Assembly (NCBI RefSeq): GCF_001428895.1
Contig: NZ_LMJA01000011.1
Coordinates: forward strand, 1 to 64,000
DNA length: 64,000 nt
DNA from: Mycobacterium sp. Root265
GTDB taxonomy: Bacteria > Actinomycetota > Actinomycetes > Mycobacteriales > Mycobacteriaceae
Direction of reading: 5' to 3'
A program made the position numbers and the translations under genes. This document shows positions 7,136-52,002 of this stretch, piece after piece (position 1 is the first letter of the stretch; each line of letters begins with the position of its first letter). The notes below the pieces were generated by a model. The model ran no database searches. It saw only the letters and a program-made list of their open reading frames with translations, and had not been told where the DNA came from.

Positions 7136-7444
7136 GGGCCGTCCCTTCGGGGTTCCATCGTCGAACGCTGGAGATTCTCGATACATGCAAACTAACTTCT
7201 CACAGTACGAGAATCAACGTCCGAGAGCGTTCTCGGTGCCCCTGACCGCGTATTTCGGTCCTCGCCGCGGCCACGGGCAGGCTGATTCACGGGCGTCTTC
7301 ATTGACCTTACGACCAAAGACTGGAAATCTGTTAGTCAGTTATGAGAATATGATTCTCGTACCGGAGAAGCCGCGGACATCAGCTGGACTTCCAGCCTGG
7401 CCGCGAGCGGCAGACCCGAACGAACACACCAGAGAGGTTGCACC
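7136..7444. promoter_or_regulatory. Divergent control region, amidohydrolase/Rieske genes
   Basis: No gene is supported. It holds the perfect operator palindrome at 7344-7358, a near-palindrome at 7221-7236 (CCGAGAGCGTTCTCGG), an isolated ATTCTC at 7174-7179 and TTCTC/GAGAA arms at 7197-7201 and 7209-7213. The clustering of the same hexamer suggests more than one repressor contact for the two divergent promoters. Confidence 0.65.
7344..7358. promoter_or_regulatory. Operator palindrome GAGAAT-ATG-ATTCTC
   Basis: Perfect 6-3-6 inverted repeat, 86 nt upstream of the Rieske start. The centre can be read as a -10 element (TATGAT, 7349-7354), so a bound repressor would block the promoter. Same palindrome as at 12817, 44498 and 47442. 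Confidence 0.8.
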
Positions 7445-8788
7445 GTGGCGTTTTTCCCCAAACCAGCAGCGGGAAGCTGGACCGAGAACTGGCCGGAACT
7501 CGGCACGGCACCGGTTGACTACACCGATTCCGTCGATCCCGAGCACTGGAAGCTGGAACAGCAGGCCATCTTCCGCAAGACCTGGCTGCACATGGGCCGG
7601 GTGGAACTGGTCCCCAAGAAGGGCCGCTACGTCACCCGCGAACTGCCGTCGGTCGGCCCCGGCGTGTCGATCATCATCGTCAACGACGGCGACGAGATCC
7701 GCGCCTTCTACAACCTGTGCCGTCACCGCGGCAACAAGCTGGTGTGGAACGACTACCCGAACGAAGAGGTCTCCGGAAGCTGCCGGCAGTTCGTCTGCAA
7801 GTACCACGCCTGGCGTTACGACCTGAAGGGCGATCTGACCTTCGTCCAGCAGGAGAGCGAGTTCTTCGACCTGGACAAGGCCGACTACCCGCTCAAGTCG
7901 GTGCGCTGCGAGGTCTGGGAAGGCTTCATCTTCGTCAACTTCGACGATGACGCGGTCTCGCTGGAGGAATACCTCGGCGAGTTCGGCGAGGGCCTCAAGG
8001 GCTACCCGTTCCACGAGATGACCGAGCACTACAGCTACCGCTCGGAGATCAAGGCGAACTGGAAGCTGTTCATCGACGCGTTCACCGAGTTCTACCACGC
8101 GCCGATCCTGCACATGAAGCAGGCGGAGAAGGAGGAGGCCGAGAAGCTGGCCAAGTTCGGCTTCGAGGCGCTGGCCTACGACATCAAGGACGACCACTCG
8201 ATGGTGTCGTCGTGGGGCGGAATGTCGCCGCCGAAGGACATCAGCATGGTCAAGCCCATCGAGCAGATCCTGCACAGCGGGCTGTTCGGGCCGTGGGACC
8301 GGCCCGACATCGACGGCATCCTGCCCGAGGAGCTGCCGCCGGCCATCAACCCGGGACGGCACAAGACCTGGGGCACCGACTCTTTCGAGTTCTTCCCGAA
8401 CTGGACGCTGCTGTTCTGGGTGCCGGGCTGGTACCTCACCTACAACTACTGGCCCACCGGCGTGGACAGCCACATCTTCGAGGCCGACCTGTACTTCGTG
8501 CCGCCGAAGAACCTGCGCGAACGCCTGTCGCAGGAGCTGGCCGCGGTGACGTTCAAGGAGTACGCGTTCCAGGACGCCAACACCCTCGAAGCCACCCAGT
8601 CCCAGATCGGCACGCGCGCCGTCACCGAATTCCCGCTGTGCGACCAGGAAATCCTGCTTCGCCACCTGCACATGACCGCGCACCAGTACGTTGACAGGTA
8701 CAAGGCGAGCCTCGAAGAAAAGGCGGCCGACGCATCGGCAAACGGCGCCGCGGCCACGAAGACCGAGAAGGAATCAGCAAATGTCTAA
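7445..8788 (+). CDS. Rieske [2Fe-2S] ring-hydroxylating oxygenase, alpha subunit
   Basis: Terminal oxygenase that would hydroxylate a ring or demethylate a substrate with O2 and electrons from a ferredoxin. 447 aa. The Rieske cluster ligands are Cys92/His94 and Cys118/His121. The 23-residue gap between His94 and Cys118 is longer than the common 15-17 and contains an extra Cys113. The mononuclear iron site shows as FTEFYHAPILH (His218, His223). GTG start with AGAGAGG upstream. No beta subunit, reductase or dedicated ferredoxin lies beside it; the [2Fe-2S] ferredoxin at 47490 shares the same operator. It is first in a six-gene plus-strand unit. Confidence 0.94.
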   Translation: MAFFPKPAAGSWTENWPELGTAPVDYTDSVDPEHWKLEQQAIFRKTWLHMGRVELVPKKGRYVTRELPSVGPGVSIIIVNDGDEIRAFYNLCRHRGNKLVWNDYPNEEVSGSCRQFVCKYHAWRYDLKGDLTFVQQESEFFDLDKADYPLKSVRCEVWEGFIFVNFDDDAVSLEEYLGEFGEGLKGYPFHEMTEHYSYRSEIKANWKLFIDAFTEFYHAPILHMKQAEKEEAEKLAKFGFEALAYDIKDDHSMVSSWGGMSPPKDISMVKPIEQILHSGLFGPWDRPDIDGILPEELPPAINPGRHKTWGTDSFEFFPNWTLLFWVPGWYLTYNYWPTGVDSHIFEADLYFVPPKNLRERLSQELAAVTFKEYAFQDANTLEATQSQIGTRAVTEFPLCDQEILLRHLHMTAHQYVDRYKASLEEKAADASANGAAATKTEKESANV

Positions 8789-9110
8789 GCTGCCCGAGGA
8801 ATTCGCCGATCTGGAGCGGTTCGCCGAATGGTGCCTTCCCACCGAGGAAGAGCGTTACCAGAAGCGGCTCAATTCGACGATGGCCCAGATGCAGGAGCTC
8901 TACGACGCCGGCATGAAACGGCTCGAAGACATCATGGTCTACGTCGACGCCCGTTTCCCGCTGGCGTCGATGCCGGAGGACGCCAAGGCACTGGTGCACC
9001 TGGGCCAGTCGATCGTCATGGTGAGCTTCCCCATCGAGGTGTGGAAGCAACCGCGCGTGCTCGACAGCGGCGCGGCCTATATCAACCTCATCAAGGAGCC
9101 GGTGGTCTAG
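8781..9110 (+). CDS. Unknown 109-aa protein coupled to the Rieske gene
   Basis: No function recognised. It overlaps the end of the Rieske gene by 8 nt and ends 2 nt before the next start, so it is clearly part of the operon. The N-terminal half is acidic and predicted helical (LPEEFADLERFAEWCLP; later YDAGMKRLEDIMVYV), with one Cys at position 18. It contains no metal-ligand cluster and does not resemble the cone-shaped beta subunit of ring-hydroxylating oxygenases (usually about 160-180 aa). It may be a small partner or substrate-channel subunit of the oxygenase; this is inference from position only. Confidence 0.8.
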   Translation: MSKLPEEFADLERFAEWCLPTEEERYQKRLNSTMAQMQELYDAGMKRLEDIMVYVDARFPLASMPEDAKALVHLGQSIVMVSFPIEVWKQPRVLDSGAAYINLIKEPVV

Positions 9111-9112
9111 GC

Positions 9113-10348
9113 GTGTCAGACGTACTGACCCTCAAAGCCGCGGGTCTGGTCGACGTCGATGCCGGGGCGATCATTCGCCCCGGCATCGTTCGTGTCTCCG
9201 GAGACCGCATCGTGGGCATCGGCGGGGAACCCGAGGGCGAGGTCATCGATCTCGGCGACGCCATCCTGTTGCCCGGGCTGATGGACATGGAAGTCAATCT
9301 GCTCATGGGCGGGCGCGGGGAGAACCCCGGCCTGTCCCAGGTCCAGGACGATCCGCCGACCCGGGTGCTGCGCGCGGTGGGCAATGCCCGGCGCACGCTG
9401 CACGCCGGGTTCACCACCGTGCGCAACCTCGGTCTGTTCGTCAAGACCGGCGGCTATCTGCTGGACGTGGCGCTGGGCAAGGCCATCGACGCCGGCTGGG
9501 TGGAGGGACCACGGGTGATCCCCGCCGGTCATGCCATCACTCCCACCGGTGGCCATCTGGACCCGACCATGTTCGCCGCATTCATGCCCGGAGCACTGGA
9601 ACTCACCGTCGAGGAGGGTATCGCCAACGGCGTCGATGAGATCCGCAAGGCGGTGCGCTACCAGATCAAGCACGGCGCCCAGCTGATCAAGGTCTGCGTC
9701 TCGGGCGGCGTCATGTCGCTGACCGGTGAGGCCGGCGCCCAGCACTATTCGGACGAGGAATTGCGCGCCATCGTCGACGAGGCGCATCGCCGCGGTCTGC
9801 GGGTCGCCGCGCACACCCACGGCGCCGAGGCCGTCAAGCATGCGGTGGCATGCGGTATCGACTGCATCGAGCACGGCTTCCTGATGGACGACGAGGCCAT
9901 TCAGGCGCTGGTCGACAATGACCGCTTCCTGGTGACCACCCGCCGGCTGGCCCAGGCCATGGACGTCTCCAAGGCACCAAAAGTCCTGCAGGACAAGGCT
10001 GCCATCATGTTTCCGAAAGCGGAGACGTCGATCAAGGCGGCGTATGAGGCCGGCGTCAAGATCGCCGTCGGCACCGATGCCCCGGCCATCCCGCACGGTA
10101 AGAACGCCGACGAACTGGTCACCCTGGTGGAATGGGGAATGCCCCCCGCCGCGGTGCTGCGGTCGGCAACCATCATCGCCGCCGACTTGATCAACTCCAC
10201 CGACCGGGGACGGCTGGCCGAAGGGTTGCTGGCCGACATCATCGCGGTGCCCGGCAACCCCCTCGAGGACATCACCGTTACACGGAATGTCACATTTGTA
10301 ATGAAGGGCGGTAAGGTCTACAAGAATGAGTACGCCGATGGCTCCTAG
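9113..10348 (+). CDS. Amidohydrolase (imidazolonepropionase/prolidase-like) with altered first metal motif
   Basis: Metal-dependent hydrolase of the amidohydrolase-1 group, 411 aa, starting at GTG 9113, 2 nt after the previous stop. The expected barrel-strand-1 motif D-x-H-x-H reads D58-M-E60-V-N62, so both metal histidines are replaced. The carboxylated Lys position (Lys193 in LIKVCVSGG), histidines in VAAHTHG (234, 236), EHG (254) and GTDAP (Asp322) are kept. It may bind one metal rather than two, or be altered in activity. It could hydrolyse a cyclic amide or lactone. Its end overlaps the next gene by 23 nt. Confidence 0.86.
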   Translation: MSDVLTLKAAGLVDVDAGAIIRPGIVRVSGDRIVGIGGEPEGEVIDLGDAILLPGLMDMEVNLLMGGRGENPGLSQVQDDPPTRVLRAVGNARRTLHAGFTTVRNLGLFVKTGGYLLDVALGKAIDAGWVEGPRVIPAGHAITPTGGHLDPTMFAAFMPGALELTVEEGIANGVDEIRKAVRYQIKHGAQLIKVCVSGGVMSLTGEAGAQHYSDEELRAIVDEAHRRGLRVAAHTHGAEAVKHAVACGIDCIEHGFLMDDEAIQALVDNDRFLVTTRRLAQAMDVSKAPKVLQDKAAIMFPKAETSIKAAYEAGVKIAVGTDAPAIPHGKNADELVTLVEWGMPPAAVLRSATIIAADLINSTDRGRLAEGLLADIIAVPGNPLEDITVTRNVTFVMKGGKVYKNEYADGS

Positions 10349-11884: not shown

Positions 11885-11886
11885 CG

Positions 11887-12687: not shown

Positions 12688-12701
12688 CGCGAATTCACCG
12701 A

Positions 12702-12758
12702 CGAAACTACGGTCATTGCTGGTTGGAGGCTGTTTTTCCGGCAATCGCCGTAGTTTCG
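12702..12758 (+). terminator. Imperfect long-stem hairpin after the Rieske operon
   Basis: Arms 12702-12719 and 12741-12758 pair at 16 of 18 positions around a 21-nt loop, starting 15 nt after the stop codon. There is no T-tract after the stem. Probable transcription end of the plus-strand operon. It resembles the hairpins at 4511 and 20520 in arm length and position. Confidence 0.6.
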
Positions 12759-12816
12759 GCGCGCCCTCATTAAGGGAAAGCCGGTTTTCCGGTAGGCCTT
12801 CTGAAAAGACGAAAAT

Positions 12817-12831
12817 GAGAATAGTATTCTC
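12817..12831. promoter_or_regulatory. Operator palindrome GAGAAT-AGT-ATTCTC
   Basis: Perfect 6-3-6 palindrome, 56 nt upstream of the TetR start. TAGTAT in its centre can act as a -10 box. This location suggests autoregulation by the TetR protein it precedes. Confidence 0.8.
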
Positions 12832-12887
12832 GTCATGAGGAAGCTAGAGTCTCCGACACGTACGTCGCGAGGGGGTGGAGCACGGCA

Positions 12888-13607
12888 ATGCCCAGGCATT
12901 CTCCGGTACAGTCCATTCATGTCCTTCCCAGTCGGCACGCAGCTGAGGCGCCGGTGACCACCGCAAGCGAAGAACCTGCCTGGAAGCAGCGCGCGGTCGA
13001 GCGCTCGATCAAAACCGCCAAACTGCGGGCCGCTCAGCGGGTTCAGCGATTCCTGGATGCCGCCCAGTCGATCATCATCGAGAAGGGCAGCACGGACTTC
13101 ACCGTGCAAGAGGTCGTCGACCGCTCCCGCCAGTCACTGCGCAGCTTCTACCTGCAGTTCGACGGTAAACACGAGCTGCTGCTCGCACTCTTTGAGGACG
13201 CACTCAGCCGATCCGCGGACCAGATCCGGGCTGCCGTCGCCGGCCATACCGATCCGATCGAGCGGCTCAAGGTCGCCATCGAGCTCCTCTTCGAATCCTC
13301 CCGGCCCGACCCGACGGCGAAGCGTCCGCTGTTCACCGACTTCGCCCCCCGACTGCTGGTGTCGCACCCTTCCGAGGTCAAGGTGGCGCACGCCCCACTG
13401 GTGGTGCTGCTCACCGAACTCATGGAGGAAGCCGCCGAAGCGGGTCAGTTGCGGCCCGGCCTCAATCCGCGCCGGATGGCCGCGATGACGATGCAGACCG
13501 TGATGTTCGTCGCACAGTCCAGCGGTAGCGAGGACGTCGCCGTCAAGCCGATCTCGGCGCAGGAAGTGTGGGACTTCGTCGCTCACGGCTTCACCACCGA
13601 AGACTGA
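12888..13607 (+). CDS. TetR-family regulator, candidate master of the GAGAAT regulon
   Basis: 239 aa with a basic, probably flexible N-terminus, then a TetR helix-turn-helix (about residues 71-97: FTVQEVVDRS, then the recognition helix before FYLQFDGKHELL). The C-terminal ligand domain would bind an acyl-CoA or pathway intermediate. ATG at 12888 has GGTGGAG 7 nt upstream; a GTG at 12954 is an alternative giving a shorter N-terminus. A perfect operator lies upstream and a one-mismatch copy overlaps its stop codon, so it is the only regulator in the window flanked on both sides by this motif. Confidence 0.9.
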   Translation: MPRHSPVQSIHVLPSRHAAEAPVTTASEEPAWKQRAVERSIKTAKLRAAQRVQRFLDAAQSIIIEKGSTDFTVQEVVDRSRQSLRSFYLQFDGKHELLLALFEDALSRSADQIRAAVAGHTDPIERLKVAIELLFESSRPDPTAKRPLFTDFAPRLLVSHPSEVKVAHAPLVVLLTELMEEAAEAGQLRPGLNPRRMAAMTMQTVMFVAQSSGSEDVAVKPISAQEVWDFVAHGFTTED

Positions 13608-13620
13608 GAATCCCGTTCTC
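13606..13620. promoter_or_regulatory. Operator-like palindrome GAGAAT-CCC-GTTCTC
   Basis: 11 of 12 arm positions match the regulon palindrome. It overlaps the stop codon of the TetR gene and lies about 290 nt upstream of the mycofactocin-type SDR. Confidence 0.6.
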
Positions 13621-13906
13621 GCGGGTGTGTCTCCCGCCCCGGCACGACGCCGGTGCTTCTTATCGCGCCCCGCTGCGAACGCCCGCATCGATCCGACCCT
13701 CCGGTGCGCTCCGACATCAAGGACACCCCGCCGCCCGACCCGCTCTCCCGGTGCCGGATTCTGCGCGACGCTCCGTGTCGAGAACCCAATTCTTCTAAGC
13801 GAAGAGTACAAATATCCCGATTTGAGTCTGTCATTGACACAGGTGCCACCCGGTGAAAGAGTGCTGAGCAAGTGCACAAAAAGTACTCCGAGGAATTGAG
13901 GACCAC
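13608..13906. promoter_or_regulatory. Control region of the SDR/epimerase operon
   Basis: About 300 nt without a supported gene. It contains two degenerate copies of the regulon palindrome (13606-13620 and 13780-13794) and ends with the ribosome site of the SDR gene. Confidence 0.55.
13780..13794. promoter_or_regulatory. Degenerate operator GAGAAC-CCA-ATTCTT
   Basis: 10 of 12 arm positions match the regulon palindrome. It lies 112 nt upstream of the SDR start, a plausible promoter position. Confidence 0.5.
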
Positions 13907-14752
13907 ATGGCAGGGCGGGTAGAAGGCAAAGTCGCATTCGTCACCGGTGCGGCACGCGGGCAGGGCCGCAGCCACGCCGTTCGGCTGGCCGAAGAGGGCG
14001 CCGACATCATCGCGATCGATATCGCCGGACCGATCCGGCCCGGCGTCGAGACCGCCATTCCGGCCTCCACCCCCGACGATCTCGCCGAGACCGCCAACCT
14101 GGTGAAGGGCCTCAATCGCCGCATCGTCACCGCCGAGGTCGACGTCCGTGACGCCGCTGCACTCAAGGCGGCCGTCGACAGCGGTGTGGAGCAACTCGGA
14201 CGGCTGGACATCGTGGTGGCCAACGCCGGCATCGGCAACGGTGGCGACCCCCTGCACGAGACCAGTGAGCTCGACTGGGACGAGATGATCGACATCAACC
14301 TGTCCGGTGTGTGGAAGTCGGTGAAAGCCGCTGTGCCGCATATCATCAACGGCGGCCGAGGCGGCTCCATCATCCTGACCAGCTCGGTCGGCGGACTGAA
14401 GGCCTACCCGCACTGCGGCAACTACGTGTCGGCCAAGCACGGTGTGGTGGGCCTGATGCGCGGTTTCGCCGTCGAACTCGGCCATCACAACATCCGCGCC
14501 AACACTGTGCATCCCACCCACGTCAACACCGACATGCTGCACAACGAAGGCACCTTCAAGATGTTCCGGCCGGACCTGGAAAACCCGGGCCCCGACGATA
14601 TGGCGCCGATCTGCCAGATGTTCCACACGCTGCCGATCCCGTGGGTCAACGCCGTGGACATCAGCAATGCGGTGCTGTTTCTGGCCTCCGACGAGGCGCG
14701 TTACATCACCGGTGTCACGCTGCCGGTCGACGCCGGTAGCTGCCTGAAGTAA
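13907..14752 (+). CDS. Mycofactocin-coupled SDR (carveol dehydrogenase-like)
   Basis: 281-aa short-chain dehydrogenase matching the mycofactocin-associated SDR subfamily. It has GKVAFVTGAARGQGRSHAVR with the glycine-rich NAD motif, the subfamily insertion after the second strand (about residues 46-70), NAGIGNGG, catalytic Ser in ILTSSVGG, YVSAK, and NTVHPTHVNTDM. Such enzymes oxidise secondary alcohols using tightly bound nicotinamide recycled by the peptide cofactor mycofactocin. GAGGA precedes the ATG. First of a four-gene unit with two epimerase-like reductases and an APH-like protein. No mycofactocin biosynthesis genes are in the window. Confidence 0.93.
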   Translation: MAGRVEGKVAFVTGAARGQGRSHAVRLAEEGADIIAIDIAGPIRPGVETAIPASTPDDLAETANLVKGLNRRIVTAEVDVRDAAALKAAVDSGVEQLGRLDIVVANAGIGNGGDPLHETSELDWDEMIDINLSGVWKSVKAAVPHIINGGRGGSIILTSSVGGLKAYPHCGNYVSAKHGVVGLMRGFAVELGHHNIRANTVHPTHVNTDMLHNEGTFKMFRPDLENPGPDDMAPICQMFHTLPIPWVNAVDISNAVLFLASDEARYITGVTLPVDAGSCLK

Positions 14753-14755
14753 CCG

Positions 14756-37310: not shown

Positions 37311-37325
37311 GGAAATCTCATTCTC
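37311..37325. promoter_or_regulatory. Degenerate operator GGAAAT-CTC-ATTCTC
   Basis: The right arm is perfect and the left arm matches 4 of 6, lying in the divergent region between the MhpC-like operon and the IclR gene, 28 nt from the MhpC-like start. Weak member of the GAGAAT family. Confidence 0.45.
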
Positions 37326-40794: not shown

Positions 40795-41940
40795 CTACAG
40801 CGAAAGGATGGTCGCCGACGCGGTGCCGGGGGCGCCGTACACCTGGGCCAGGCCGACGCGCGGATTGCCGGGGACCTGACGCTCCCCCGCTTCGCCGCGC
40901 AACTGCCGGACCAACTCGTGCATCTGACGCAGGCCCGAGGCACCGATCGGCTCGCCGTTGGCGATCAGACCGCCGTCGGTGTTGACCGGGATGGAACCGT
41001 TGATCTCGGTGGCGCCGTCGATCAGCAGCTTCTCCTGCTCACCGTCGGCACACAGCCCGGTCTCGGCCATGTGGATGACCTCGGCGCCGGCGTCGGTGTC
41101 CTGCAACTGGGCGATGTCGACGTCCTCGGGCCCGATTCCGGCGGCCTCGTAGGCGGCCTTGGCGGCGAACACCGTCGGCGAGGGATCCTCGTCCAGCGGC
41201 GCGGAGGTGGCGTGCACCTCATAGGCGCCGAAGGTGCGGGTGCGAATCTCACTGGCCCGCACGTAGACCGGCTTGTCGGTGTACTTGTGGGCGATATCGG
41301 CGCGGCACATGATGACCGCCGCCGCGCCTTCGTCGGGTGCGCAGAACATGTATTGCCGCAGCGGGTAGTTCAGCACCGGCGAGGCCATGATCTCCTCCAC
41401 GGAGATCTCCTTGCGCCGGAAGGCATTCGGGTTGAGCACGCCGTTGCGGAAGTTCTTGTTGGCCACCCGGGCCAGCGTCTCTTCGGAGATGCCGTGCTTG
41501 TGGATGTAGTGATTGGCCTTGATGCCGAAGAACTTGGTGGTCACGAACTGGCCGTTGTTGGCGTACCACTGCGGCAGCGCGAGTTTGGCCGGATCGTCGG
41601 TGAAGGCACCGCGCGGATGCTTGTCCAGGCCGATCGCGATACCGATGTCGTACTTGCCCAATCGGATGGTGTCCGCGGTCTGTTGGATGGCACTGGCCGA
41701 GGTGGCGCAGGCGTTGAAGACGTTGGTGAAGGTGATGCCGGTGAGGCCGACCAGGCGGGTGACGGCATCGGGGTTGGACACCTCGTAGCTGCCGCCGAAC
41801 CCGAACTGGATGTCCTTCCATTCCAGCTTCGCGTCGGCCAGCGCGCTGGTGATCGCCTCGGCACCCATTTCCATCGCGGTCTTGTCGAACCGGCCGAACG
41901 GGTGGATACCGACGCCGATGATCGCTACATCGTTGCTCAT
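40795..41940 (-). CDS. Thiolase-like lipid-transfer protein (Ltp, retro-aldolase type)
   Basis: 381 aa thiolase fold. Cys78 sits in NACATSA, but the thiolase GHP motif and C-terminal CxG are missing (GEPIGASGLRQ and VYGAPGTASA instead), as in the Ltp group. In steroid side-chain catabolism Ltp2 forms a complex with a DUF35 protein and performs a retro-aldol cleavage. The DUF35 gene lies 12 nt upstream, supporting the same role here on another side chain. Confidence 0.9.
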   Translation of the reverse strand: MSNDVAIIGVGIHPFGRFDKTAMEMGAEAITSALADAKLEWKDIQFGFGGSYEVSNPDAVTRLVGLTGITFTNVFNACATSASAIQQTADTIRLGKYDIGIAIGLDKHPRGAFTDDPAKLALPQWYANNGQFVTTKFFGIKANHYIHKHGISEETLARVANKNFRNGVLNPNAFRRKEISVEEIMASPVLNYPLRQYMFCAPDEGAAAVIMCRADIAHKYTDKPVYVRASEIRTRTFGAYEVHATSAPLDEDPSPTVFAAKAAYEAAGIGPEDVDIAQLQDTDAGAEVIHMAETGLCADGEQEKLLIDGATEINGSIPVNTDGGLIANGEPIGASGLRQMHELVRQLRGEAGERQVPGNPRVGLAQVYGAPGTASATILSL

Positions 41941-41952
41941 GTCTGGGACTCC

Positions 41953-42366
41953 TTAAACCGGCTTGAACCAGAAGGTGACGAGCTCGTCACCGTCGGCATC
42001 GGTGGCGAACGGCTCCATGGTCAGTTCGACCTCCATGCCGAATTCCAGCTTGGCGGGATCGTTTTCGGTGAGCCGGCCCTCGACACGGATCAGGTCGCCG
42101 AGTTGAACCAGTCCGACACCGAACGGCACGAAGTCCTTGCCGGTCGGCCCGGCATACGGCGCTCCGGGCGGGAAGCCCTGCGTCGTCCAGGCCACGACGG
42201 TGCCGCGGCGGGGCAGCAGCAGATCGGCCATCTCGGCCTTGCTGCACTTGGGACAGCGCTCTTGACGCGGGAACGTCGTCGCGGAACACGCGCCACACTG
42301 GCTGCCGATGAGTTGCGGATTCTCATCGGGCCAGGTGGAGATCTCGGGGGCAAGCGCCTTCTGCAT
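41953..42366 (-). CDS. DUF35 Zn-ribbon/OB-fold protein, partner of Ltp
   Basis: 137 aa. Zn-ribbon Cys24-x2-Cys27 and Cys38-x2-Cys41, followed by an OB-fold (RRGTVVAWTTQGF to the end). Such proteins stabilise Ltp-type thiolases; in the steroid pathway the equivalent domain is fused to the ChsH2 hydratase, whereas here it stands alone. It is first gene of a three-gene minus unit. Confidence 0.9.
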   Translation of the reverse strand: MQKALAPEISTWPDENPQLIGSQCGACSATTFPRQERCPKCSKAEMADLLLPRRGTVVAWTTQGFPPGAPYAGPTGKDFVPFGVGLVQLGDLIRVEGRLTENDPAKLEFGMEVELTMEPFATDADGDELVTFWFKPV

Positions 42367-42431: not shown

Positions 42432-42446
42432 GGAAACCACATTCTC
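42432..42446. promoter_or_regulatory. Degenerate operator GGAAAC-CAC-ATTCTC
   Basis: Right arm perfect, left arm 3 of 6; overlaps a GTGG-AAA-CCAC palindrome (42430-42440). It lies 65 nt upstream of the DUF35 start and touches the stop codon of the GTPase gene. Probable promoter zone of the DUF35-Ltp-crotonase unit. Confidence 0.4.
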
Positions 42447-43323
42447 ATTGAGGTTTGACCTGCGCACCATCGAGTAGCCGAGCGGTCGCCGCATAGACAT
42501 CGAGGTCGCGGGTGGCCACCCGCCCGGCCAGTTCATCGAGACCGGAATCAGACTGCAGCGCACTCTGTGCCAGCGACAGAATCTGCAGCCGGGCACGAAT
42601 CGCCCGTCGCTCGGCAGTATCGGTGCGATGGTGGGCGTCGATGGCGACGATCAGTTCCTCGATACCGGTGTTCTGCGACGCGATGATCTTGAGGATCGGC
42701 AACCCGGTCTCGATGTGCAGGTCCCTGGCGGTCTGATCGGCACCGTCGCGGTCGGCCTTGTTGACGACGATGATGTCGGCGATCTCCAGCAGACCCGCCT
42801 TGGCGGCCTGGATCGCATCTCCGGCCCCCGGGTTGAGGATGGCCACCGTCGGGTCGGCCACGGCGGCGATCTCGATCTCTGACTGACCCACTCCCACCGT
42901 CTCCAGCACGACGATGTCGTAGTGCAGTGCCGCCAGCAGCCGGATCGCCGCGGGCACCGCGGCGGCCAACCCGCCGAGGTGTCCGCGGGTGGCCACCGAA
43001 CGGATCATGACGTCGGGGTCGTTGATGTGGGCGGCCATCCGGATCCGGTCACCGAGCAGCGCTCCCCCGCTGTACGGCGAGGACGGGTCGACGGCCAGCA
43101 CCGCGACCCGTAACCCCCTGGCCCGGTACGCCGATACGAGCACCGCGACGGTGGTGGACTTTCCCGCGCCCGGCGGACCGGTGATCCCGACGGTGCGCAC
43201 CGGCGATGCGGGCAGCATCGCCAGCACCTCGTCGCGACGCTCGCTTTCGACCAGGCTCAGCAGCCGGCCTGCGGCACGCTGCGATCCGGCACGGGCGGCG
43301 TCGAGCAGTTCCTGGATGTCCAT
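42445..43323 (-). CDS. meaB: MeaB/ArgK-type GTPase, chaperone of a B12 mutase
   Basis: 292 aa G3E-type P-loop GTPase. Walker A GPPGAGKST (49-57), VLETVGVGQSE switch region and NKAD specificity motif. MeaB proteins gate adenosylcobalamin loading and protect methylmalonyl-CoA mutase family enzymes. It is separated from the thiolase gene by 11 nt, so shares its operator at 44498. Its likely client is the split mutase at 49796-51821. Start 43323 chosen; the longer frame adds an unrelated basic extension. Confidence 0.94.
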   Translation of the reverse strand: MDIQELLDAARAGSQRAAGRLLSLVESERRDEVLAMLPASPVRTVGITGPPGAGKSTTVAVLVSAYRARGLRVAVLAVDPSSPYSGGALLGDRIRMAAHINDPDVMIRSVATRGHLGGLAAAVPAAIRLLAALHYDIVVLETVGVGQSEIEIAAVADPTVAILNPGAGDAIQAAKAGLLEIADIIVVNKADRDGADQTARDLHIETGLPILKIIASQNTGIEELIVAIDAHHRTDTAERRAIRARLQILSLAQSALQSDSGLDELAGRVATRDLDVYAATARLLDGAQVKPQ

Positions 43324-43334: not shown

Positions 43335-44471
43335 TTATGGCGCGACCTCGATGACCGTGGCCGAACCCATGCCGCCGCCCGCGCACATCGCGGCCACGCC
43401 GATACCACCTCCGCGCCTGCGCAGTTCATGAACCAGGGTGACGATCATCCGGGCGCCGGTGGCCGCGACCGGATGCCCCAGCGAACACCCGCTGCCGCTG
43501 ACGTTGACCTTGTCCGGGTCGATGTCGAGCAGCTTGATGGTGGCCACGCACATCGCCGCGAATGCCTCGTTGATCTCGAACAGGTCGACATCGGAGAGCG
43601 AGATCCGGGCCCGGGTCAGCGCTTTGGTGATGGCCTCCACCGGGGCGAGCCCGGTGAATGCCGGATCCACCCCGACCGATGCCCAGGCGCGGATGGTGCC
43701 GAGCGCGGGCAGTCCGAGCCGGTCGCTGGCGATGGCAAGGGCCGCCGAGGCGTCGTTGGCGCCGCAGGCATTGCCCGCGGTGATCGAGAAGCCGTCGATC
43801 TCCGGGTGCAGCACCTTGAGTCCGGCCAGCTTCTCCAAGGTGGTGTCGCGGCGGGGATGTTCGTCGGTGTCGAATACCCCGTGCGGGGTGTCGATGGGCA
43901 GGATCTCGTCCTTGAAGCGTCCCTCGTCGATGGCCGTGATGGCCTTCTGATGTGAGCCCAGCGCCCAGGCGTCCATCTCCTCGCGGGTCACCCCGGCCTT
44001 GACCGCGGCGTTCCAGCCGACGGTGATCGACATGTCCATATTCGGTGCGTCGGGCCGGTCGGGATGGGTCGGCGGGAACCATGGCTGGAACTCCTCGCCC
44101 ACCTGGCGGATGAACCGCGGCGAGGTGGAGGCCGAGTTCACCCCACCGGCGATGATCAGCTGATCCATCCCGGACCGGATGCTCGCGGCGGCAGTCTGCA
44201 CCGCCGCCTGTCCGGCGGCGCAGTGCCGGTTGAGCGCCAGTCCGGGTACCGAGGTCAGGCCGGCGGTGACGGCCGCGTGCCGGGCGACCACGCCGCCGCC
44301 ATAGAGGCCCTCGCCGAGGATGACGTCATCCACCGGGGCACCGTCGAGTCCGCCGGCCACCGCTGCGACCACATGGTCGGCGAGCACGTAGGCGTCGGTA
44401 TCGCGCAGTGTGCCCTTCTTGGCGGTGCCGATCGGTGTGCGCACTGCGGAGACGATGACGGCCTCAGGCAT
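43335..44471 (-). CDS. Thiolase (acetyl-CoA C-acyltransferase)
   Basis: 378 aa, start 44471 with AAAGGGG upstream. Nucleophile Cys84 in NRHCAAGQ, NEAFAAM, GCSLGHPVAATGAR and MCAGGGMGSA are all intact, so degradative thiolase activity is expected. It is divergent from an SDR gene over a perfect regulon operator. Confidence 0.94.
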   Translation of the reverse strand: MPEAVIVSAVRTPIGTAKKGTLRDTDAYVLADHVVAAVAGGLDGAPVDDVILGEGLYGGGVVARHAAVTAGLTSVPGLALNRHCAAGQAAVQTAAASIRSGMDQLIIAGGVNSASTSPRFIRQVGEEFQPWFPPTHPDRPDAPNMDMSITVGWNAAVKAGVTREEMDAWALGSHQKAITAIDEGRFKDEILPIDTPHGVFDTDEHPRRDTTLEKLAGLKVLHPEIDGFSITAGNACGANDASAALAIASDRLGLPALGTIRAWASVGVDPAFTGLAPVEAITKALTRARISLSDVDLFEINEAFAAMCVATIKLLDIDPDKVNVSGSGCSLGHPVAATGARMIVTLVHELRRRGGGIGVAAMCAGGGMGSATVIEVAP

Positions 44472-44497: not shown

Positions 44498-44512
44498 GAG
44501 AATGTTATTCTC
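44498..44512. promoter_or_regulatory. Operator palindrome GAGAAT-GTT-ATTCTC
   Basis: Perfect palindrome centred between divergent starts at 44471 and 44550. A second, overlapping perfect palindrome CTCTCAG-T-CTGAGAG occupies 44510-44524. It could control both directions at once. Confidence 0.82.
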
Positions 44513-44549: not shown

Positions 44550-45314
44550 ATGGACATCGCCGGTAGCTCCGCGCTCGTCGTAGGTGGCGCAGGAGGCCTT
44601 GGAGAAGCGACGGTCCGCCGATTGCACGCTGCGGGCGCCAAAGTGGTGGTCGCAGATCTGGCCGACGAGAAGGGCCCCAAGCTCGCCGAGGAGCTCGGCG
44701 TGAAGTACGTCCGCACCGACGCGACCTCCGAGGAATCCGTCAACGCCGCCGTCGCCGAGGCGGAAGCCCTTGCCCCGCTGCGTATCTCGGTGGACACCCA
44801 CGGCGGCCCGGCGGCCGGTGGCCGGCTGATCGGCAAGGACGGTTCGCCGCACGGCCTGGAGGGGTTCGAGACGACGGTCAAGTTCTATCTGACCGCGGTG
44901 TTCAACGTGATGCGGCTGGCCGCAGCGGCCATCGCGCGCACCGAACCGCTGGAAGAAGGCGGCCGCGGCGTCATCGTCAACACCGCATCCATCGCCGGCT
45001 ACGAGGGACAGATCGGCCAGCTGGCCTACGCCGCGGCCAAGGGCGGCGTGCTGGGCATGACGCTGGTGGCCGCACGCGACCTGTCCCCGTTGGGCATTCG
45101 GGTCAACACCATCGCCCCCGGCACCATCAACACCCCGGCCTATGGCAAGGCCGCCGACCAACTGGAGCAGTACTGGGGCCCGCAGATCCCGTTCCCCAAG
45201 CGGATGGGCCGCTCGACCGAGTACGCCCAACTCGCCCAGAGCATCATCGAGAACGACTACCTCAACGGTGAGATCATCCGTCTCGACGGGGGTCTGCGGT
45301 TCCCGCCCAAGTGA
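44550..45314 (+). CDS. SDR, 3-hydroxyacyl-CoA dehydrogenase type II-like
   Basis: 254 aa. GGAGGLGEATV coenzyme motif, Asp at the end of strand 2 (VVADLADE), Ser in NTASIAGYEGQ, YAAAK and APGTINTP; the whole resembles HSD10-type enzymes that act on 3-hydroxyacyl-CoA and steroids. With the divergent thiolase it would complete a beta-oxidation turn. AAGGAG precedes the ATG. It overlaps the next gene by 4 nt. Confidence 0.9.
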   Translation: MDIAGSSALVVGGAGGLGEATVRRLHAAGAKVVVADLADEKGPKLAEELGVKYVRTDATSEESVNAAVAEAEALAPLRISVDTHGGPAAGGRLIGKDGSPHGLEGFETTVKFYLTAVFNVMRLAAAAIARTEPLEEGGRGVIVNTASIAGYEGQIGQLAYAAAKGGVLGMTLVAARDLSPLGIRVNTIAPGTINTPAYGKAADQLEQYWGPQIPFPKRMGRSTEYAQLAQSIIENDYLNGEIIRLDGGLRFPPK

Positions 45315-46048
45315 GCTCGCTCGCCGGTAAGACGGCATTCGTCGCCGGAGCCAGCCGCGGGATCGGGGCCACCATCGCCCACGCGCTCGCCGCGGCGGGT
45401 GCATCGGTGGCGGTCGCGGCCCGTTCCGAACAGCGCGGCAAGATGCCCGGCACCATCGGCTCGGTGGCGGATTCGATCCGCGCACAGGGCGGTCGTGCGT
45501 TGGCCGTCCCATGCGATGTCACCAGCGAGGAGTCGGTCGACAGCGCTGTCGCCGAGACGGTTTCGGAGTTCGGCGGGATCGACATCCTGGTCGCCAATGC
45601 GGGCGTGCTGTGGCTGGGACCGGTGGAATCGACACCGCTCAAACGCTGGCAGCTGTGCCTGGACGTCAACCTGACCGGCGTCTTCCTGGTGACCAAGGCG
45701 GTGATCCCGCACGTGCGGGCCCGTGGCGGCGGATCGCTGACGGCCATCACCACCACCGGCGTCGGGATGGCCGGCGCGAACGCCTACTGGGTGTCCAAGG
45801 CTGCCGCCGAGCGGCTCTACCTGGGTTTGGCCGACGATCTGCGCCCGGACAATATCGCGGTGAACTGCCTCAGCCCGTCCCGGGTGGTGCTCACCGAGGG
45901 GTGGCAGGCCGGTGGCGGCGGAGTCGAGATCCCGCCCGAGTTCGTCGAACCACCCGAGGCGATGGGCCGGGCCGCGGTGCTGCTCGCCGGGCAGGACGCC
46001 ACCGGGATCACCGGCACCGTGCAGCGCTCCGAGGAACTCACCGTCTGA
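45311..46048 (+). CDS. SDR with Thr in place of catalytic Ser
   Basis: 245 aa beginning at a GTG that overlaps the previous stop (GTGA). GASRGIGATI motif, VANAGVLW, YWVSK present. The strand-5 segment reads LTAITTTGVG, so the catalytic Ser appears to be Thr. It may still be active, as Thr occasionally substitutes. It is the second gene of a two-gene unit. Confidence 0.85.
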   Translation: MSSLAGKTAFVAGASRGIGATIAHALAAAGASVAVAARSEQRGKMPGTIGSVADSIRAQGGRALAVPCDVTSEESVDSAVAETVSEFGGIDILVANAGVLWLGPVESTPLKRWQLCLDVNLTGVFLVTKAVIPHVRARGGGSLTAITTTGVGMAGANAYWVSKAAAERLYLGLADDLRPDNIAVNCLSPSRVVLTEGWQAGGGGVEIPPEFVEPPEAMGRAAVLLAGQDATGITGTVQRSEELTV

Positions 46049-46059
46049 TCTTCGATCAG
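46045..46059. terminator. Small hairpin CTGATC-TTC-GATCAG
   Basis: Perfect 6-bp stem and 3-nt loop spanning the stop codons of convergent genes ending at 46048 and 46056. Weak bidirectional terminator candidate. Confidence 0.4.
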
Positions 46060-47417
46060 GAGTACTGGTCGCGCAGTACCCGCCGCAGCACCTTTCCCGA
46101 CGGCAACCGCGGGATCGCGTCGACGAAGACCACCCGGCTCGGGCGTTTGTAGGACGACAGCCGCTCCCCCACCAGCGCGATCAGTTCCCGCTCGGCGACC
46201 GGCGTTCCGGCCGCGACGGCCGCGATGACCGCCTCACCATTCACGCCGTCGGGGATGCCGAACACCGCGCAGTCCTCGACCGCCGGGTGCCCGTGCAGCA
46301 CCGCCTCCACCTCCGCGGGCGCCACCTGGAAACCGCGGACCTTGATCATCTCCTTGAGCCGGTCGGTGATCCGCAGCCAGCCATCGCTGTCCAGTTCGCC
46401 GATGTCCCCGGTGCGGTACCAGCCGTCGTCGAACGCGGCCGCGGTCGCGTCGCCGGGCAGGTAGCCGACCATCGCCGACTCCGAACGAACCTGGATCTCA
46501 CCGCTGCCGGCGATCCGCACCGCCACACCGGGCACCGGTTTGCCCACCGTGTCCAACCGTGCGTCTCCGATCGGGCAGCAGGCGATCACCGGTAGTTCGC
46601 TGGCGCCGTAGGCCGAAATCCATGGCACACCGACCCGTTCGGTGACGGTATCGGCGACGCTCTTGGTGACCGGAGTCGCGCACCACATGATGTAGCGCAG
46701 CGAGGACAGGTCGTAGTTCTCCAGGTCCGGATGCGCGGCGATGGCCAGAGCGATGGGCGCGACGGCCATTTCGATGGTGATGCGGTCATCCTGGATATGG
46801 GACAGCATCCGGTTGATGTCGAAGCGTGGATGCAGGCGCATCCAGGCGCCGGCGTCGAGCACGGTGGCGATGTTGAGCAGCCCGAGGATGTGCGAGGGCG
46901 GCGTCATGATCTGCATACGATCGTCGGCCGTGAGACCGAGCGCGGTCCGCCAGTGCCGCACCGCCGCAGCGAAGCCCGCATGTGTGTGCCGCACGGCCTT
47001 GGGCATCCCGGTCGTCCCGGAGCTGAACACGAACAACGCGTCGGCCTCGGGCAGCACCGGTGCCCATCCGCCGTCGGCGGGTGAAATCGGCTCGTCCAGA
47101 TGCAGCATAGGGATCAGGTCGGCCAGCACCGCGGCATCCCCGACGCCCAGCACCGGCGAGGTCAGCTCCAGCGCATGCGCAACCTCGGCCGGTTTCCAGG
47201 CCGAACTGAGCAGCACCACCGATGCACCCAGGCGCCAGATCGCCCGCAGTGCAACGACGAACTCGGGACGGTTGGACGACATCAGCGCGACCCGGTCACC
47301 GGCGCTCACGCCGCGGGCGGCGAGCGTGGCGGCCATCCCGTCGGACAGCGCGTCCAGCTCGGCCATGGTGTACTGACGGTCCCCGAATGCCAGGACCGGT
47401 TGGTTCTCTGCAGCCAT
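46056..47417 (-). CDS. Acyl-CoA synthetase (AMP-forming), short form
   Basis: 453 aa adenylate-forming ligase, at the short end for the family. Core motifs: FSSGTTGMPKA (ATP loop), YGASELP, GWYRTGDIGELD, IKVRGFQVAPAEVE and the catalytic Lys in PSGKVLRR. It activates a carboxylic acid to acyl-CoA. ATG at 47417 is preferred over the TTG codon just before it. It is divergent from the ferredoxin gene over a perfect operator. Confidence 0.92.
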   Translation of the reverse strand: MAAENQPVLAFGDRQYTMAELDALSDGMAATLAARGVSAGDRVALMSSNRPEFVVALRAIWRLGASVVLLSSAWKPAEVAHALELTSPVLGVGDAAVLADLIPMLHLDEPISPADGGWAPVLPEADALFVFSSGTTGMPKAVRHTHAGFAAAVRHWRTALGLTADDRMQIMTPPSHILGLLNIATVLDAGAWMRLHPRFDINRMLSHIQDDRITIEMAVAPIALAIAAHPDLENYDLSSLRYIMWCATPVTKSVADTVTERVGVPWISAYGASELPVIACCPIGDARLDTVGKPVPGVAVRIAGSGEIQVRSESAMVGYLPGDATAAAFDDGWYRTGDIGELDSDGWLRITDRLKEMIKVRGFQVAPAEVEAVLHGHPAVEDCAVFGIPDGVNGEAVIAAVAAGTPVAERELIALVGERLSSYKRPSRVVFVDAIPRLPSGKVLRRVLRDQYS

Positions 47418-47441
47418 CAACCGACTACCTTATCCGTAACG

Positions 47442-47456
47442 GAGAATGATATTCTC
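47442..47456. promoter_or_regulatory. Operator palindrome GAGAAT-GAT-ATTCTC
   Basis: Perfect, extended by one base pair each side (47441-47457). It lies 24 nt from the ligase start and 33 nt from the ferredoxin start. The central TGATAT can serve as a -10 element. Confidence 0.82.
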
Positions 47457-47489
47457 CATTTGTCAGAATCCGACGCCCAGGAGAGCTTG

Positions 47490-47786
47490 ATGACGGCCGA
47501 ACCAGTGCCCGCCGACGAAGTGACGATCCTGCTCGACGGTGCCCGCACCACGACGCTGCCGGTCGCAGGCGACACGCTGCTGGAAACGGCACGACGCGCC
47601 GGTCTGACTCCCCCGTTCGCCTGCGAGGCGGGTAACTGTGGCACCTGCATCGCCAAACTCACCGAGGGCAGCGCGACCATGAAGGTCAACGACGCGCTCG
47701 ACGACGACGAGGTCGAAGAGGGCTATGTCCTGACGTGCCAGGCGATCCCGAACTCGGGCCCGCTGACGGTCGATTACGACGACTGA
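47490..47786 (+). CDS. Plant-type [2Fe-2S] ferredoxin
   Basis: 98 aa. Cluster ligands Cys45-x4-Cys50-x2-Cys53 (CEAGNCGTC) and Cys83 (LTCQA). Start at 47490 with AGGAGAG; an upstream in-frame TTG at 47460 is less likely. It stands alone but shares the operator of the Rieske gene, so it may feed electrons to that oxygenase. No reductase is in the window. Its end overlaps the convergent CoA-transferase by 13 nt. Confidence 0.93.
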   Translation: MTAEPVPADEVTILLDGARTTTLPVAGDTLLETARRAGLTPPFACEAGNCGTCIAKLTEGSATMKVNDALDDDEVEEGYVLTCQAIPNSGPLTVDYDD

Positions 47787-48814: not shown

Positions 48815-48825
48815 AACCGTCTGCT

Positions 48826-48845
48826 CTTCGCGCAAGCGCTCATCA
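48826..48845. repeat. 20-nt intergenic repeat, copy 1
   Basis: CTTCGCGCAAGCGCTCATCA on the plus strand, identical to 50215-50234. Each copy begins at the stop codon of the upstream minus-strand gene and contains GCGC-TT-GCGC symmetry on the minus strand. Confidence 0.8.
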
Positions 48846-49799
48846 CTGCACCTGCTTGGCGAGTTCGGCGATCACCTCACGCGTCCGATACTTGGACGCG
48901 ATCAACTCGTCACGGTTATCACCGATCGGCAGCAGGCGCACCGACAGGTCGGTGACACCGGCGTCGGCGAAGGCCTTGAACCGCTTGAGGATCGATTCTT
49001 CGTCACCGGCGGCGCAGAGATCGCCGACGGTGCGGGCATCCCCACGGTCGAGCAGTCGCTGATAGTTGGGCGAGGTTTCGGCCTCGGCCAGGATGCGGTT
49101 GGCCCGGTCCTTCGCCTCGTCGATCTCGGAATTCGCGCACAGCGTGACCGGGATGCCCGCCACGATGCGCGGCGCGGGTTTGCCCGCCCCGGCGGCGGCC
49201 TTGTTGATCTTGGGGGCGATGTGCTCGCCGATGGCCTTCTCATCGGCCATCCACAGCGAGGTCCCGTCGGCGTGCTCGCCGGCGATCTGCAGCATGACCG
49301 GGCCGAGAGCCGCCACCAGTACCGGAAGCGGGGTCGCGGCGCCGAGCGCGGTCGGATTGTGCACGGTGAAGGTGTCGTTCTCGACATCCACCGGGCCGGG
49401 CCCGGCGATGGCGGCATTGAACACCTGCAGGTAGTCGCGGGTGTAGGCGGCGGGCTTGTCATAGGGCAGGCCCAGCATGTCCCGGATGATCCAGTGATGC
49501 GACGGCCCGACCCCGAGAGCCAGCCGCCCGTTCGACACGGCATGCACCGAAAGCGCCTGACGAGCAAGGGCAATGGGGTGCTGCGCCTGCAGCGGCACCA
49601 CGGCGGTTCCGAGTTCGATGCGGGTGCTGTGTGACGCCATCAGCGCCACCATGGTCAGCAGATCAAAATCGTCGGGCACCTGCGGCATCCAGGCGGTGGC
49701 CAGGCCGGCCGAGTCGGCCCATTCGATATCGGAGATCAGCTTGCTGACCTTGCGGGCCATATCGCCGCGCTCGGCCCCGATCATCACGCCGAGTCTCAT
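48843..49799 (-). CDS. F420-type luciferase-like oxidoreductase
   Basis: 318 aa LLM-fold protein of the mycobacterial F420-dependent group: MRLGVMIGAERGD, IELGTAVVPLQAQHP, GRLALGVGPSHHW and the VLVAALGPVMLQIAGEHADG segment. It probably uses coenzyme F420 to reduce or oxidise a substrate. It overlaps the B12-binding subunit gene by 4 nt, so is co-translated with the mutase, an unusual pairing. Confidence 0.88.
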   Translation of the reverse strand: MRLGVMIGAERGDMARKVSKLISDIEWADSAGLATAWMPQVPDDFDLLTMVALMASHSTRIELGTAVVPLQAQHPIALARQALSVHAVSNGRLALGVGPSHHWIIRDMLGLPYDKPAAYTRDYLQVFNAAIAGPGPVDVENDTFTVHNPTALGAATPLPVLVAALGPVMLQIAGEHADGTSLWMADEKAIGEHIAPKINKAAAGAGKPAPRIVAGIPVTLCANSEIDEAKDRANRILAEAETSPNYQRLLDRGDARTVGDLCAAGDEESILKRFKAFADAGVTDLSVRLLPIGDNRDELIASKYRTREVIAELAKQVQ

Positions 49800-50197
49800 G
49801 ACTTGGAAACCTTCTCGGTGAGCGCGCGCACATCGGTCACCAGTTTCTCCAGCGACGTCCCGGTGGGGAACACCGCGGCCGCACCGGCATCCAGCAGCTT
49901 CTGCACATCGGCTTCGGGAATGGTGCCACCGACCACCACGGCGATATCGCCGGCATCAGCGGCCCGCAGCGCGTCCACAACACGGGTGGTCAACCCCACA
50001 TGCGCGCCGGAGAGGATCGAAAGGCCCACCAGAGCAACGTCTTCCTGCAGCGCGATGGAGACGATGTCCTCGACACGCTGACGGATACCGGTGTAGACGA
50101 CCTCGAAGCCGGCATCACGCAGCGTGCGCGCGACAATCTTGGCGCCCTTGTCGTGACCGTCCAGACCAGGCTTGGCGACCAATACGCGTGTCGCCAT
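49796..50197 (-). CDS. Acyl-CoA mutase small subunit, B12-binding
   Basis: 133 aa cobalamin-binding domain. The D-x-H-x2-G motif is GLDGHDKG, with the axial His for base-off binding, followed by GLSILSGAH and VVGGTIP. Start at 50197 (MATRVLVAKPG) with GAGAGGG upstream. Equivalent to the C-terminal part of methylmalonyl-CoA mutase; here it is a separate gene, as in ICM, HCM and archaeal mutases. It follows the large subunit gene by 34 nt. Confidence 0.94.
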   Translation of the reverse strand: MATRVLVAKPGLDGHDKGAKIVARTLRDAGFEVVYTGIRQRVEDIVSIALQEDVALVGLSILSGAHVGLTTRVVDALRAADAGDIAVVVGGTIPEADVQKLLDAGAAAVFPTGTSLEKLVTDVRALTEKVSKS

Positions 50198-50214
50198 CAG
50201 CTGTGCCCTCTCTT

Positions 50215-50231
50215 CTTCGCGCAAGCGCTCA

Positions 50232-50234
<3 letters not shown>
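50215..50234. repeat. 20-nt intergenic repeat, copy 2
   Basis: Identical to 48826-48845 and again placed directly after a minus-strand stop codon, in the spacer between the two mutase genes. Confidence 0.8.
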
Positions 50235-51821
<1,587 letters not shown>

Positions 51822-51842
51822 CACTGGATAACGTACTTGCTC

Positions 51843-51862
51843 AAAATGAGAATGCCAATACC
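51843..51862. promoter_or_regulatory. 20-nt direct repeat, AAAATGAGAATGCCAATACC, copy 1
   Basis: Identical to 51983-52002, both in the divergent region between mutase and HSDL2-like SDR genes. It contains GAGAAT and a degenerate right arm, so is likely a variant binding site. It lies 21 nt upstream of the mutase start. Confidence 0.65.
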
Positions 51863-51982
51863 GCTGGCTGAAAACATGCACTGTGACGGCCTGCAGCACA
51901 CGCCGACGCGCCCGTCACGGGTTCCTCGACGACACCCCGGCGGCACGTCGTGCCTGGACATGAGCGATTATGACACTTGCCG

Positions 51983-52002
51983 AAAATGAGAATGCCAATA
52001 CC
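51983..52002. promoter_or_regulatory. 20-nt direct repeat, AAAATGAGAATGCCAATACC, copy 2
   Basis: Exact copy of 51843-51862, 39 nt upstream of the SDR start. One copy per divergent gene suggests each promoter has its own site. Confidence 0.65.

Follow-up and report, generated by a model that had tools for sequence, protein, structure and literature searches.

Several TetR-family regulons of mycobacteria are already known or proposed, namely those of KstR, KstR2, and BkaR and the "motif X" regulon of Rv0767c/G155_05115. KstR is an autoregulated TetR protein with a short palindromic operator, TnnAACnnGTTnnA, lying over a putative −10 element, and controls a large, scattered lipid-catabolism regulon (PMC1995591). 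KstR2 and BkaR are repressors of acyl-coenzyme A (acyl-CoA) catabolic genes, the effector of the former being HIP-CoA (PMC6593523) and the motif core of the latter GTTA(N)T(N4)A(N)TAAC (PMC3920632). Motif X is a palindrome found at 14 operons with cytochromes P450, dehydrogenases, and TetR genes, and its regulon has been proposed for the Rv0767c ortholog (PMC6593523). Here we describe a further palindrome, GAGAAT-N3-ATTCTC (15 bp), and the TetR gene at position 12888, both located in a 64,000-nt stretch of the Mycobacterium sp. Root265 genome (the window, to which all coordinates without a prefix refer; C11, C13, C25, and C27 are contigs of the same genome, L014, L015, and L016 stretches of C27, L251 a stretch of C13, and G-numbers genomes of relatives). 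Sequence comparisons indicate that, in many environmental mycobacteria and related bacteria, this palindrome marks the start sites of scattered genes for lipid breakdown, with the TetR protein encoded beside it as the probable switch.

Perfect copies of the palindrome begin at 7344, 12817, 44498, and 47442, and imperfect ones at 13606 (1 mismatch), 13780 and 37311 (2 each), and 42432 (3), which confirms every position and mismatch count given in an earlier note on this DNA. Under a base-composition model, the 4 perfect copies of the window compare with 0.0004 expected and the 8 of the 6.67-Mb genome with 0.05, a frequency far above chance; the other 4 genomic copies lie at C27 24527, 55303, and 226696 and at C25 340064. 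Among perfect palindromes with 6-base arms and spacers of 0 to 10, GAGAAT-N3 is the most frequent in the window (4 copies, next 3). A reversed-pattern control matched once across the 148 genus genomes and is a weak control, TTA/TAA words being probably rare there; enrichment was judged by the composition model and by co-occurrence rather than by this control. With up to 3 mismatches, the window contains 19 matches versus 8.9 ± 3.0 in 100 shuffles, and because individual shuffles reach 17, 3-mismatch copies on their own carry little weight. Likewise, the genome holds 94 copies with up to 2 mismatches versus 51 expected by composition, so that 2-mismatch copies require the backing of orthology. 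Copies with 2 or 3 mismatches away from conserved positions were set aside as background. Independent gene calling placed the 4 perfect window copies in intergenic regions, and the copy at 13606 overlaps the last 2 bases of tetR. The 80 TetR loci of other records, all from close relatives (83% to 97% identity), contain 203 sites with at most 1 mismatch; 198 of them fall outside predicted genes, and 192 are located in the interval from 400 bp before to 60 bp after a predicted start. The suggestion that the copies are intergenic or at gene ends, mostly at promoters, is upheld.

The palindrome follows the TetR gene within and beyond the genus. At least 1 perfect site is present in 120 of the 122 genus genomes that encode a close TetR ortholog (mean 6.5 sites) versus 2 of the 26 that do not, with 1 site each (Fisher 4e-23, genomes treated as independent; G009 and G098, which carry a distant TetR relative only, were counted as TetR-negative). 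The TetR gene was found in 9 of the 31 genera of a family-wide set of 251 genomes, and outside the genus 2 or more sites occur in 34 of 44 TetR-positive versus 0 of 186 TetR-negative genomes, 16 of the latter carrying a single site. The position of the sites follows the gene as well. A site with at most 1 mismatch lies upstream of tetR in 79 of the 80 loci, at a distance of 137 bp from where the 217-aa match begins in 66 of them, and also in 3 genomes of other genera (G191, G378, and G290), while coordinates put a site about 126 to 140 bp upstream of tetR in G034, G090, and G028. Such a site is also found 600 to 1,000 bp past the 217-aa start in 42 of the 80 loci, comparable to the copy at 13606. 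The nearest named TetR loci are those of Mycolicibacterium sp. P9-22 (97% identity) and M. frederiksbergense (95%); M. neoaurum ATCC 25795 has a TetR locus too, and a plasmid search with the TetR sequence returned no match at E ≤ 1e-20.

The protein belongs to the TetR family by its TetR_N domain (PF00440; E = 3.4e-7 and 30.4 bits on the 217-aa form, cut-off 24) and its predicted all-helical fold (ten helices, mean predicted local distance difference test score 83.4). The model gave 287 PDB matches at E ≤ 0.001, and among the 50 matches listed are EthR2 (template modeling score 0.73), FadR proteins with acyl-CoA (0.61 to 0.69), QacR, and the weaker neighbors AibR (0.5) and KstR2 (0.4 to 0.5). 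The start of tetR was put at ATG 12888 rather than GTG 12954 because the residues between them are conserved within the genus; a start at 12954 is possible, and in 2 loci of another genus (L179 and L218) the ATG found matches the 217-aa start.

In the proposed mechanism, GAGAAT-N3-ATTCTC, with the sequence, distribution, and position described above, would be bound as its operator by the TetR protein encoded at 12888–13607. A TetR dimer placed there would block its own gene and the scattered catabolic operons, repression being the sign of regulation that we infer. The operator core TNNNAT would double as a −10 element, and TetR binding would shut out RNA polymerase. The core had been singled out in the earlier note as a possible −10 box; it is present in the perfect copies, but it does not count as independent evidence because the palindrome itself dictates TNNNAT. 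The predicted start lies 15 to 60 bp from the site center in 123 of 325 gene-oriented sites, and among 53 reduced promoter sequences a TTG placed exactly 17 bp from TNNNAT is found in 10, no other position having more than 5. Before tetR, a conserved C-T-T-C-T block keeps the 17-bp spacing, its per-base conservation ranging from 61 to 79 of 79. Given the TTG and CTTCT blocks at this spacing and the short distances to starts, the simplest mechanism would be a TetR dimer covering the −10 element, and at divergent pairs with short leaders a single operator could serve both promoters. The fold likeness to EthR2, to acyl-CoA-binding FadR proteins, and, more weakly, to KstR2 and the isovaleryl-CoA-binding AibR suggests an acyl-CoA ligand. 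On the strength of these nearest structures and of the CoA-based gene content, the signal for release of the repressor would probably be a pathway intermediate in acyl-CoA form, most likely one derived from a polycyclic isoprenoid.

We consider it very probable that the TetR protein at 12888 reads the palindrome and represses the regulon, as the earlier note had supposed; the co-occurrence, the sites upstream of tetR, and the poorer fit of other regulators all argue for it, binding being the conjectural step. The strongest competitor is another regulator of the same island, above all the second TetR of C27 (L015:9234–9902, C27:49234), which travels with the pathway and co-occurs with the sites nearly as well: in the family set, 49 of the 64 genomes that are TetR-positive encode it, as does one that is TetR-negative. 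Its ownership of the operator is nonetheless improbable, since 7 genomes with 2 to 9 sites lack it (E ≤ 1e-40), the sole genome that has it without the 12888 TetR contains 0 sites, and the 250 bp around its start in this genome hold no copy at up to 4 mismatches. The TetR at C27:7352 also fits worse, 10 of the 20 genus genomes with sites in the family set being without it. The regulator could also be the IclR-family protein at 37395: IclR proteins bind short palindromes too, its promoter carries the copy at 37311, which is perfect at the same IclR/hydrolase position in 5 relatives (G020, G082, G065, G049, and G037), and none of the 148 genus genomes has it without the TetR. However, IclR matches above 70% identity were found in the genus only, where G137 (7 sites) and G139 (4 sites) lack the protein, and outside it 39 TetR-positive, IclR-negative genomes (E ≤ 1e-40) hold 0 to 14 sites, 36 of them at least 1, whereas 8 IclR-positive, TetR-negative genomes hold 0 or 1. 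These counts leave IclR very unlikely as the reader of the palindrome, and its gene is plausibly a target instead of a conserved regulator.

It would be just as surprising if the palindrome were motif X, despite the likeness in symmetry and in the types of genes served. The promoter of the Rv0767c-like gene (C13:5095) contains TGGACA-N2-TGTCCA and matches GAGAAT-N3-ATTCTC at best with 3 mismatches, and the Rv0767c-like protein aligns with the 12888 TetR over 17 residues only (E = 0.17). This comparison was made through the promoter in the genome itself, the ortholog being assigned by its CYP51-type gene order. At that locus (L251:5095–5706, C13), the Rv0767c-like TetR gene precedes a CYP51-type operon, and the TGGACA-N2-TGTCCA just before the start of this TetR gene is itself a candidate motif X. 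Finally, the copies might be promoter elements without a dedicated repressor, in keeping with a core that doubles as a −10 element, but the dyad symmetry of both arms is maintained while the distance to the start codon varies, and site presence follows one regulator gene across genera, which makes this explanation extremely unlikely.

Some observations nevertheless weigh against assigning the palindrome to the TetR protein at 12888, in addition to the close co-occurrence of the C27:49234 regulator. Perfect sites are lacking in 5 TetR-positive genomes (G056 and G089 in the genus; G241, G344, and G351 outside it), 10 TetR-positive genomes outside the genus have fewer than 2, and in G371, from another genus, the nearest listed site is 3.7 kb from tetR. 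All co-occurrence counts treat genomes as independent of kinship. The TTG signal is narrow, 7 of the 10 promoters being a single orthologous promoter of the L015:15340 type. Two wider attributions are exposed as well: membership of an Mce operon (see below) is based on 2-mismatch copies, and the substrate class is a homology-based assignment. The repressor reading does not rest on the Mce operon.

Coordinates of the palindrome copies, the asymmetric element, and associated genes in the window
Feature	Position	Strand	Remarks
PF04909 amidohydrolase-family protein, close to DitZ	5837..7135	-	PDB 8uyr, E = 4.7e-112
Perfect palindrome	7344..7358		Between amidohydrolase 5837 and Rieske oxygenase 7445, divergent promoters
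Rieske ring-hydroxylating oxygenase alpha subunit	7445..8788	+	
Perfect palindrome	12817..12831		Upstream of tetR
TetR-family regulator, putative repressor	12888..13607	+	239 aa from ATG 12888; 217 aa from GTG 12954
11/12 copy	13606..13620		Overlaps tetR end; upstream of mycofactocin-type short-chain dehydrogenase/reductase (SDR)
10/12 copy	13780..13794		Upstream of mycofactocin-type SDR
Mycofactocin-coupled SDR	13907..14752	+	TIGR03971, 386.8 bits (cut-off 300)
Alpha/beta hydrolase	36417..37283	-	Best model HsaD but below cut-off, 131.9 bits (cut-off 400)
10/12 copy	37311..37325		IclR/HsaD-like divergent promoter region
IclR-family regulator, putative target	37395..38129	+	187-aa form, below cut-offs
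Thiolase (Thiolase_C_1 type) and putative BbsA-like partner (DUF35-type)	40795..42366	-	
9/12 copy	42432..42446		Between MeaB and BbsA-like gene; weak
MeaB-like GTPase	42445..43323	-	TIGR00750, 236.7 bits (cut-off 240.75)
Thiolase	43335..44471	-	TIGR01930, above cut-off
Perfect palindrome	44498..44512		Thiolase/SDR divergent promoter region; seen in relatives too
Two SDR genes	44550..46048	+	
AMP-forming acyl-CoA ligase	46056..47417	-	
Perfect palindrome	47442..47456		AMP ligase/ferredoxin divergent promoter region; seen in relatives too
[2Fe-2S] ferredoxin	47490..47786	+	Matches part of 339-/341-aa proteins in G101, G371
B12-binding subunit and mutase large subunit	49796..51764	-	PDB best 4r3u, 2-hydroxyisobutyryl-CoA mutase, E = 1.1e-151
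Asymmetric element GAGAATGCCAATACC	51848..51862	+	Mutase side
Second direct copy of GAGAATGCCAATACC	51988..52002	+	SDR side
SDR and AMP-forming ligase	52042..54380	+	Downstream of asymmetric element

To delimit the regulon, the surroundings of all 79 perfect sites were taken from 12 relatives (8 of the genus and 4 of other genera), and a pair was scored where a site with at most 1 mismatch accompanied a gene more than 50% identical to one of this genome; some stretches ended between site and gene, so that the counts are minimal. The amidohydrolase L015:15340 (C27) has a perfect site at its promoter in all 12 relatives, including the 4 from other genera. Pairs number at least 11 for the acyl-CoA dehydrogenase L014:4577, 9 each for the ferredoxin and the amidohydrolase L014:3188, 8 each for the AMP ligase and TetR, 6 each for the thiolase and the SDR at 44550, 4 each for the KorA-like, IclR, and HsaD-like genes, and 3 for the mycofactocin SDR; 12 further genes have at least 1 to 4 pairs each, including P450 (2), mutase (2), and Rieske oxygenase (1). 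A number of the genes with sites, many from other genera, have no counterpart among the genes of this genome that were compared. Individual window copies recur too: a site stands at the same gene pair as 7344 in G034 and at its amidohydrolase side in G090, the SDR ortholog of G049 is preceded by a copy with 1 mismatch, comparable to that at 13780, and the copy at 42432, with its GAGAAT half intact, recurs in the 3 closest relatives examined (G034, G096, and G121). The idea that such sites link the Rieske oxygenase, mycofactocin-type SDR, thiolase, ligase, ferredoxin, and MeaB genes into a regulon holds up, but the regulon exceeds the window and extends to C27 and C25, and for MeaB the simplest reading is membership through the thiolase operon at the 44498 site, in which it comes second. 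Since 7 of the 9 perfect copies of G034, including those at the C11 and first two C27 promoters, share about 99 kb (2323910–2422736), C11 and C27 probably adjoin as one island.

On C27, copies at C27:24404 (2 mismatches) and 24527 (perfect) precede both the L014:2020/3188 amidohydrolase pair and the acyl-CoA dehydrogenase pair of L014:4577. About 230 bp separate a perfect operator at L016:10697 (C27:226696) from a downstream KorA/KorB-like pair (L016:10930–13934) of the 2-oxoacid:ferredoxin oxidoreductase type, and 4 of the 12 relatives examined carry a perfect site at their KorA ortholog. Downstream of C27:30703 and 30856 (2 mismatches each) extends an operon for an aldehyde dehydrogenase, a CoA transferase, a ChsH2-type protein, an aldolase-like thiolase, two MlaE permeases, and Mce proteins; no site was found there in the surroundings compared from any of the 12 relatives, and with copies of 2 mismatches this putative importer operon is only a possible member. 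The regulated lipid catabolic programme would include CoA ligases, acyl-CoA dehydrogenases, thiolases with MeaB, ferredoxin, Rieske oxygenase, and P450, together with PF04909 proteins related to DitZ, PtmU3, and AibH1H2, a KorA-like enzyme, and, via the asymmetric element, a B12 mutase. Elsewhere in the window, a 423-aa protein encoded at 16797–18068, beside two epimerase-like genes, has no Pfam match at E ≤ 1e-6.

The region between the mutase and SDR genes carries the asymmetric element GAGAATGCCAATACC. Its two copies fall within the span that had been ascribed to the palindrome; they are conserved, but they belong to this element rather than to the palindrome. GAGAATGCCAATACC also occurs in reverse at C27:53647–53661, and the exact 15-mer is present in 112 of the 148 genus genomes, that is, in 112 of the 122 with the TetR and 0 of the 26 without it. 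All 9 genus sequences compared for the mutase/SDR intergenic region, the present one included, contain at least 1 exact copy; 5 have two exact copies, the second copy is changed by one base in G121 and G037, and it is more degenerate in G082 and G090. In another genus (G378 and G290), one exact GAGAATGCCAATACC lies near a perfect palindrome. A 15-bp stretch at −22 to −8 before the element has several invariant bases among 22 sequences compared, and GAGAATGCCAATACC could belong to a larger, composite site or operator.

Several enzymes bear on the likely substrate. The best PDB match of L015:15340 is the putative TIM-barrel hydrolase 4dzi (4.7e-81), followed by PtmU3 (3e-23) and DitZ (8e-12). 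L014:2020 matches the AibH2 chain 6m1w_B (378 aa) at E = 1.3e-51 over nearly its whole length, with only 8sm7 scoring better. According to the literature, PtmU3 hydroxylates diterpenoids and can use CoA-ligated substrates, and AibH1H2 is a dinuclear hydroxylase (PMC7782822, PMC10401708), the length of AibH2 being 378 aa (PMC7782822). The adjacent PF04909 pair at L014:2020–4312 resembles AibH2 and AibH1 and is a possible dinuclear metal hydroxylase. AibH2-like monooxygenases are marked by all six Mn/Fe ligands and, in most cases, by a small Rieske protein encoded next to them; by our reading, D-x-H and S-S-D motifs are kept in L014:2020 but not in its partner, and neither a small Rieske gene nor an AibG/AibF-like gene was seen among the neighbors of the pair that were scanned. 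By our count, the alignment of the mutase to 4r3u has Tyr and Ala in place of Ile90 and Asp117, the specificity positions of 2-hydroxyisobutyryl-CoA mutase, which speaks against identity with that enzyme. The flavoprotein at 32140 matches 3-oxosteroid 1-dehydrogenase, and LigB at 33855 matches dihydroxyphenylpropionate dioxygenase. As the DitZ, PtmU3, AibH2, steroid dehydrogenase, LigB, and mutase matches point to a polycyclic, possibly aromatised isoprenoid, the substrate class is likely a polycyclic isoprenoid (diterpenoid or steroid-like), the least certain part of the account; the genes of the window need not all belong to one pathway. Tentatively, and with less than even confidence, we propose the fuller picture of a TetR regulon, shared by several genera of one actinobacterial family, for polycyclic isoprenoid breakdown via amidohydrolase-fold metal hydroxylases acting on CoA thioesters and a B12 mutase, with two kinds of operator, the palindrome and the asymmetric GAGAATGCCAATACC, sharing one half.

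Searches of an open-licence collection, which is without most subscription journals, listed no description of the 12888 TetR or of its motif, and no paper among those listed for DitZ dealt with the protein. The analysis names a probable regulator, with its operator and its targets, for a large catabolic island carried by most of the genus genomes sampled (TetR ortholog in 122 of 148), and the list gathers candidates for new chemistry, including DitZ/AibH-like metal proteins, the mutase, and perhaps an Mce importer without known cargo. In gene types, the putative regulon resembles proteobacterial resin acid (dit) catabolism: both have a DitZ-like PF04909 protein, a Rieske oxygenase, P450s, a thiolase, and a ligase. 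Strains of Mycobacterium sp. are among the resin-acid degraders (PMC6891630). The L014:2020 and 3188 pair is arranged like AibH1H2 of Rhodococcus wratislaviensis but, among the neighbors scanned, without an AibG/AibF-like gene. Among regulons, that of KstR is alike in its autoregulated TetR, its short palindrome over a putative −10 element, and its large scattered set of lipid-catabolism genes, whereas its operator differs from GAGAAT-N3-ATTCTC, with spacer 3, in the arms; the 12888 TetR was rejected as a KstR ortholog (NF033703, 18.7 bits against a cut-off of 280). KstR2 and BkaR are similar as TetR repressors of acyl-CoA catabolic genes, KstR2 being a weak fold neighbor and BkaR having a different motif core, while motif X shares the format of a predicted mycobacterial TetR regulon with P450s and dehydrogenases and differs in its TetR and, as judged from the promoter in this genome, in its palindrome. 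The second, asymmetric element would be an unusual feature for a TetR regulon of known type. Overall, the regulator or the operator sets this regulon apart from those of KstR and BkaR and, to the extent that the comparison allows, from motif X; KstR2 was compared by fold.

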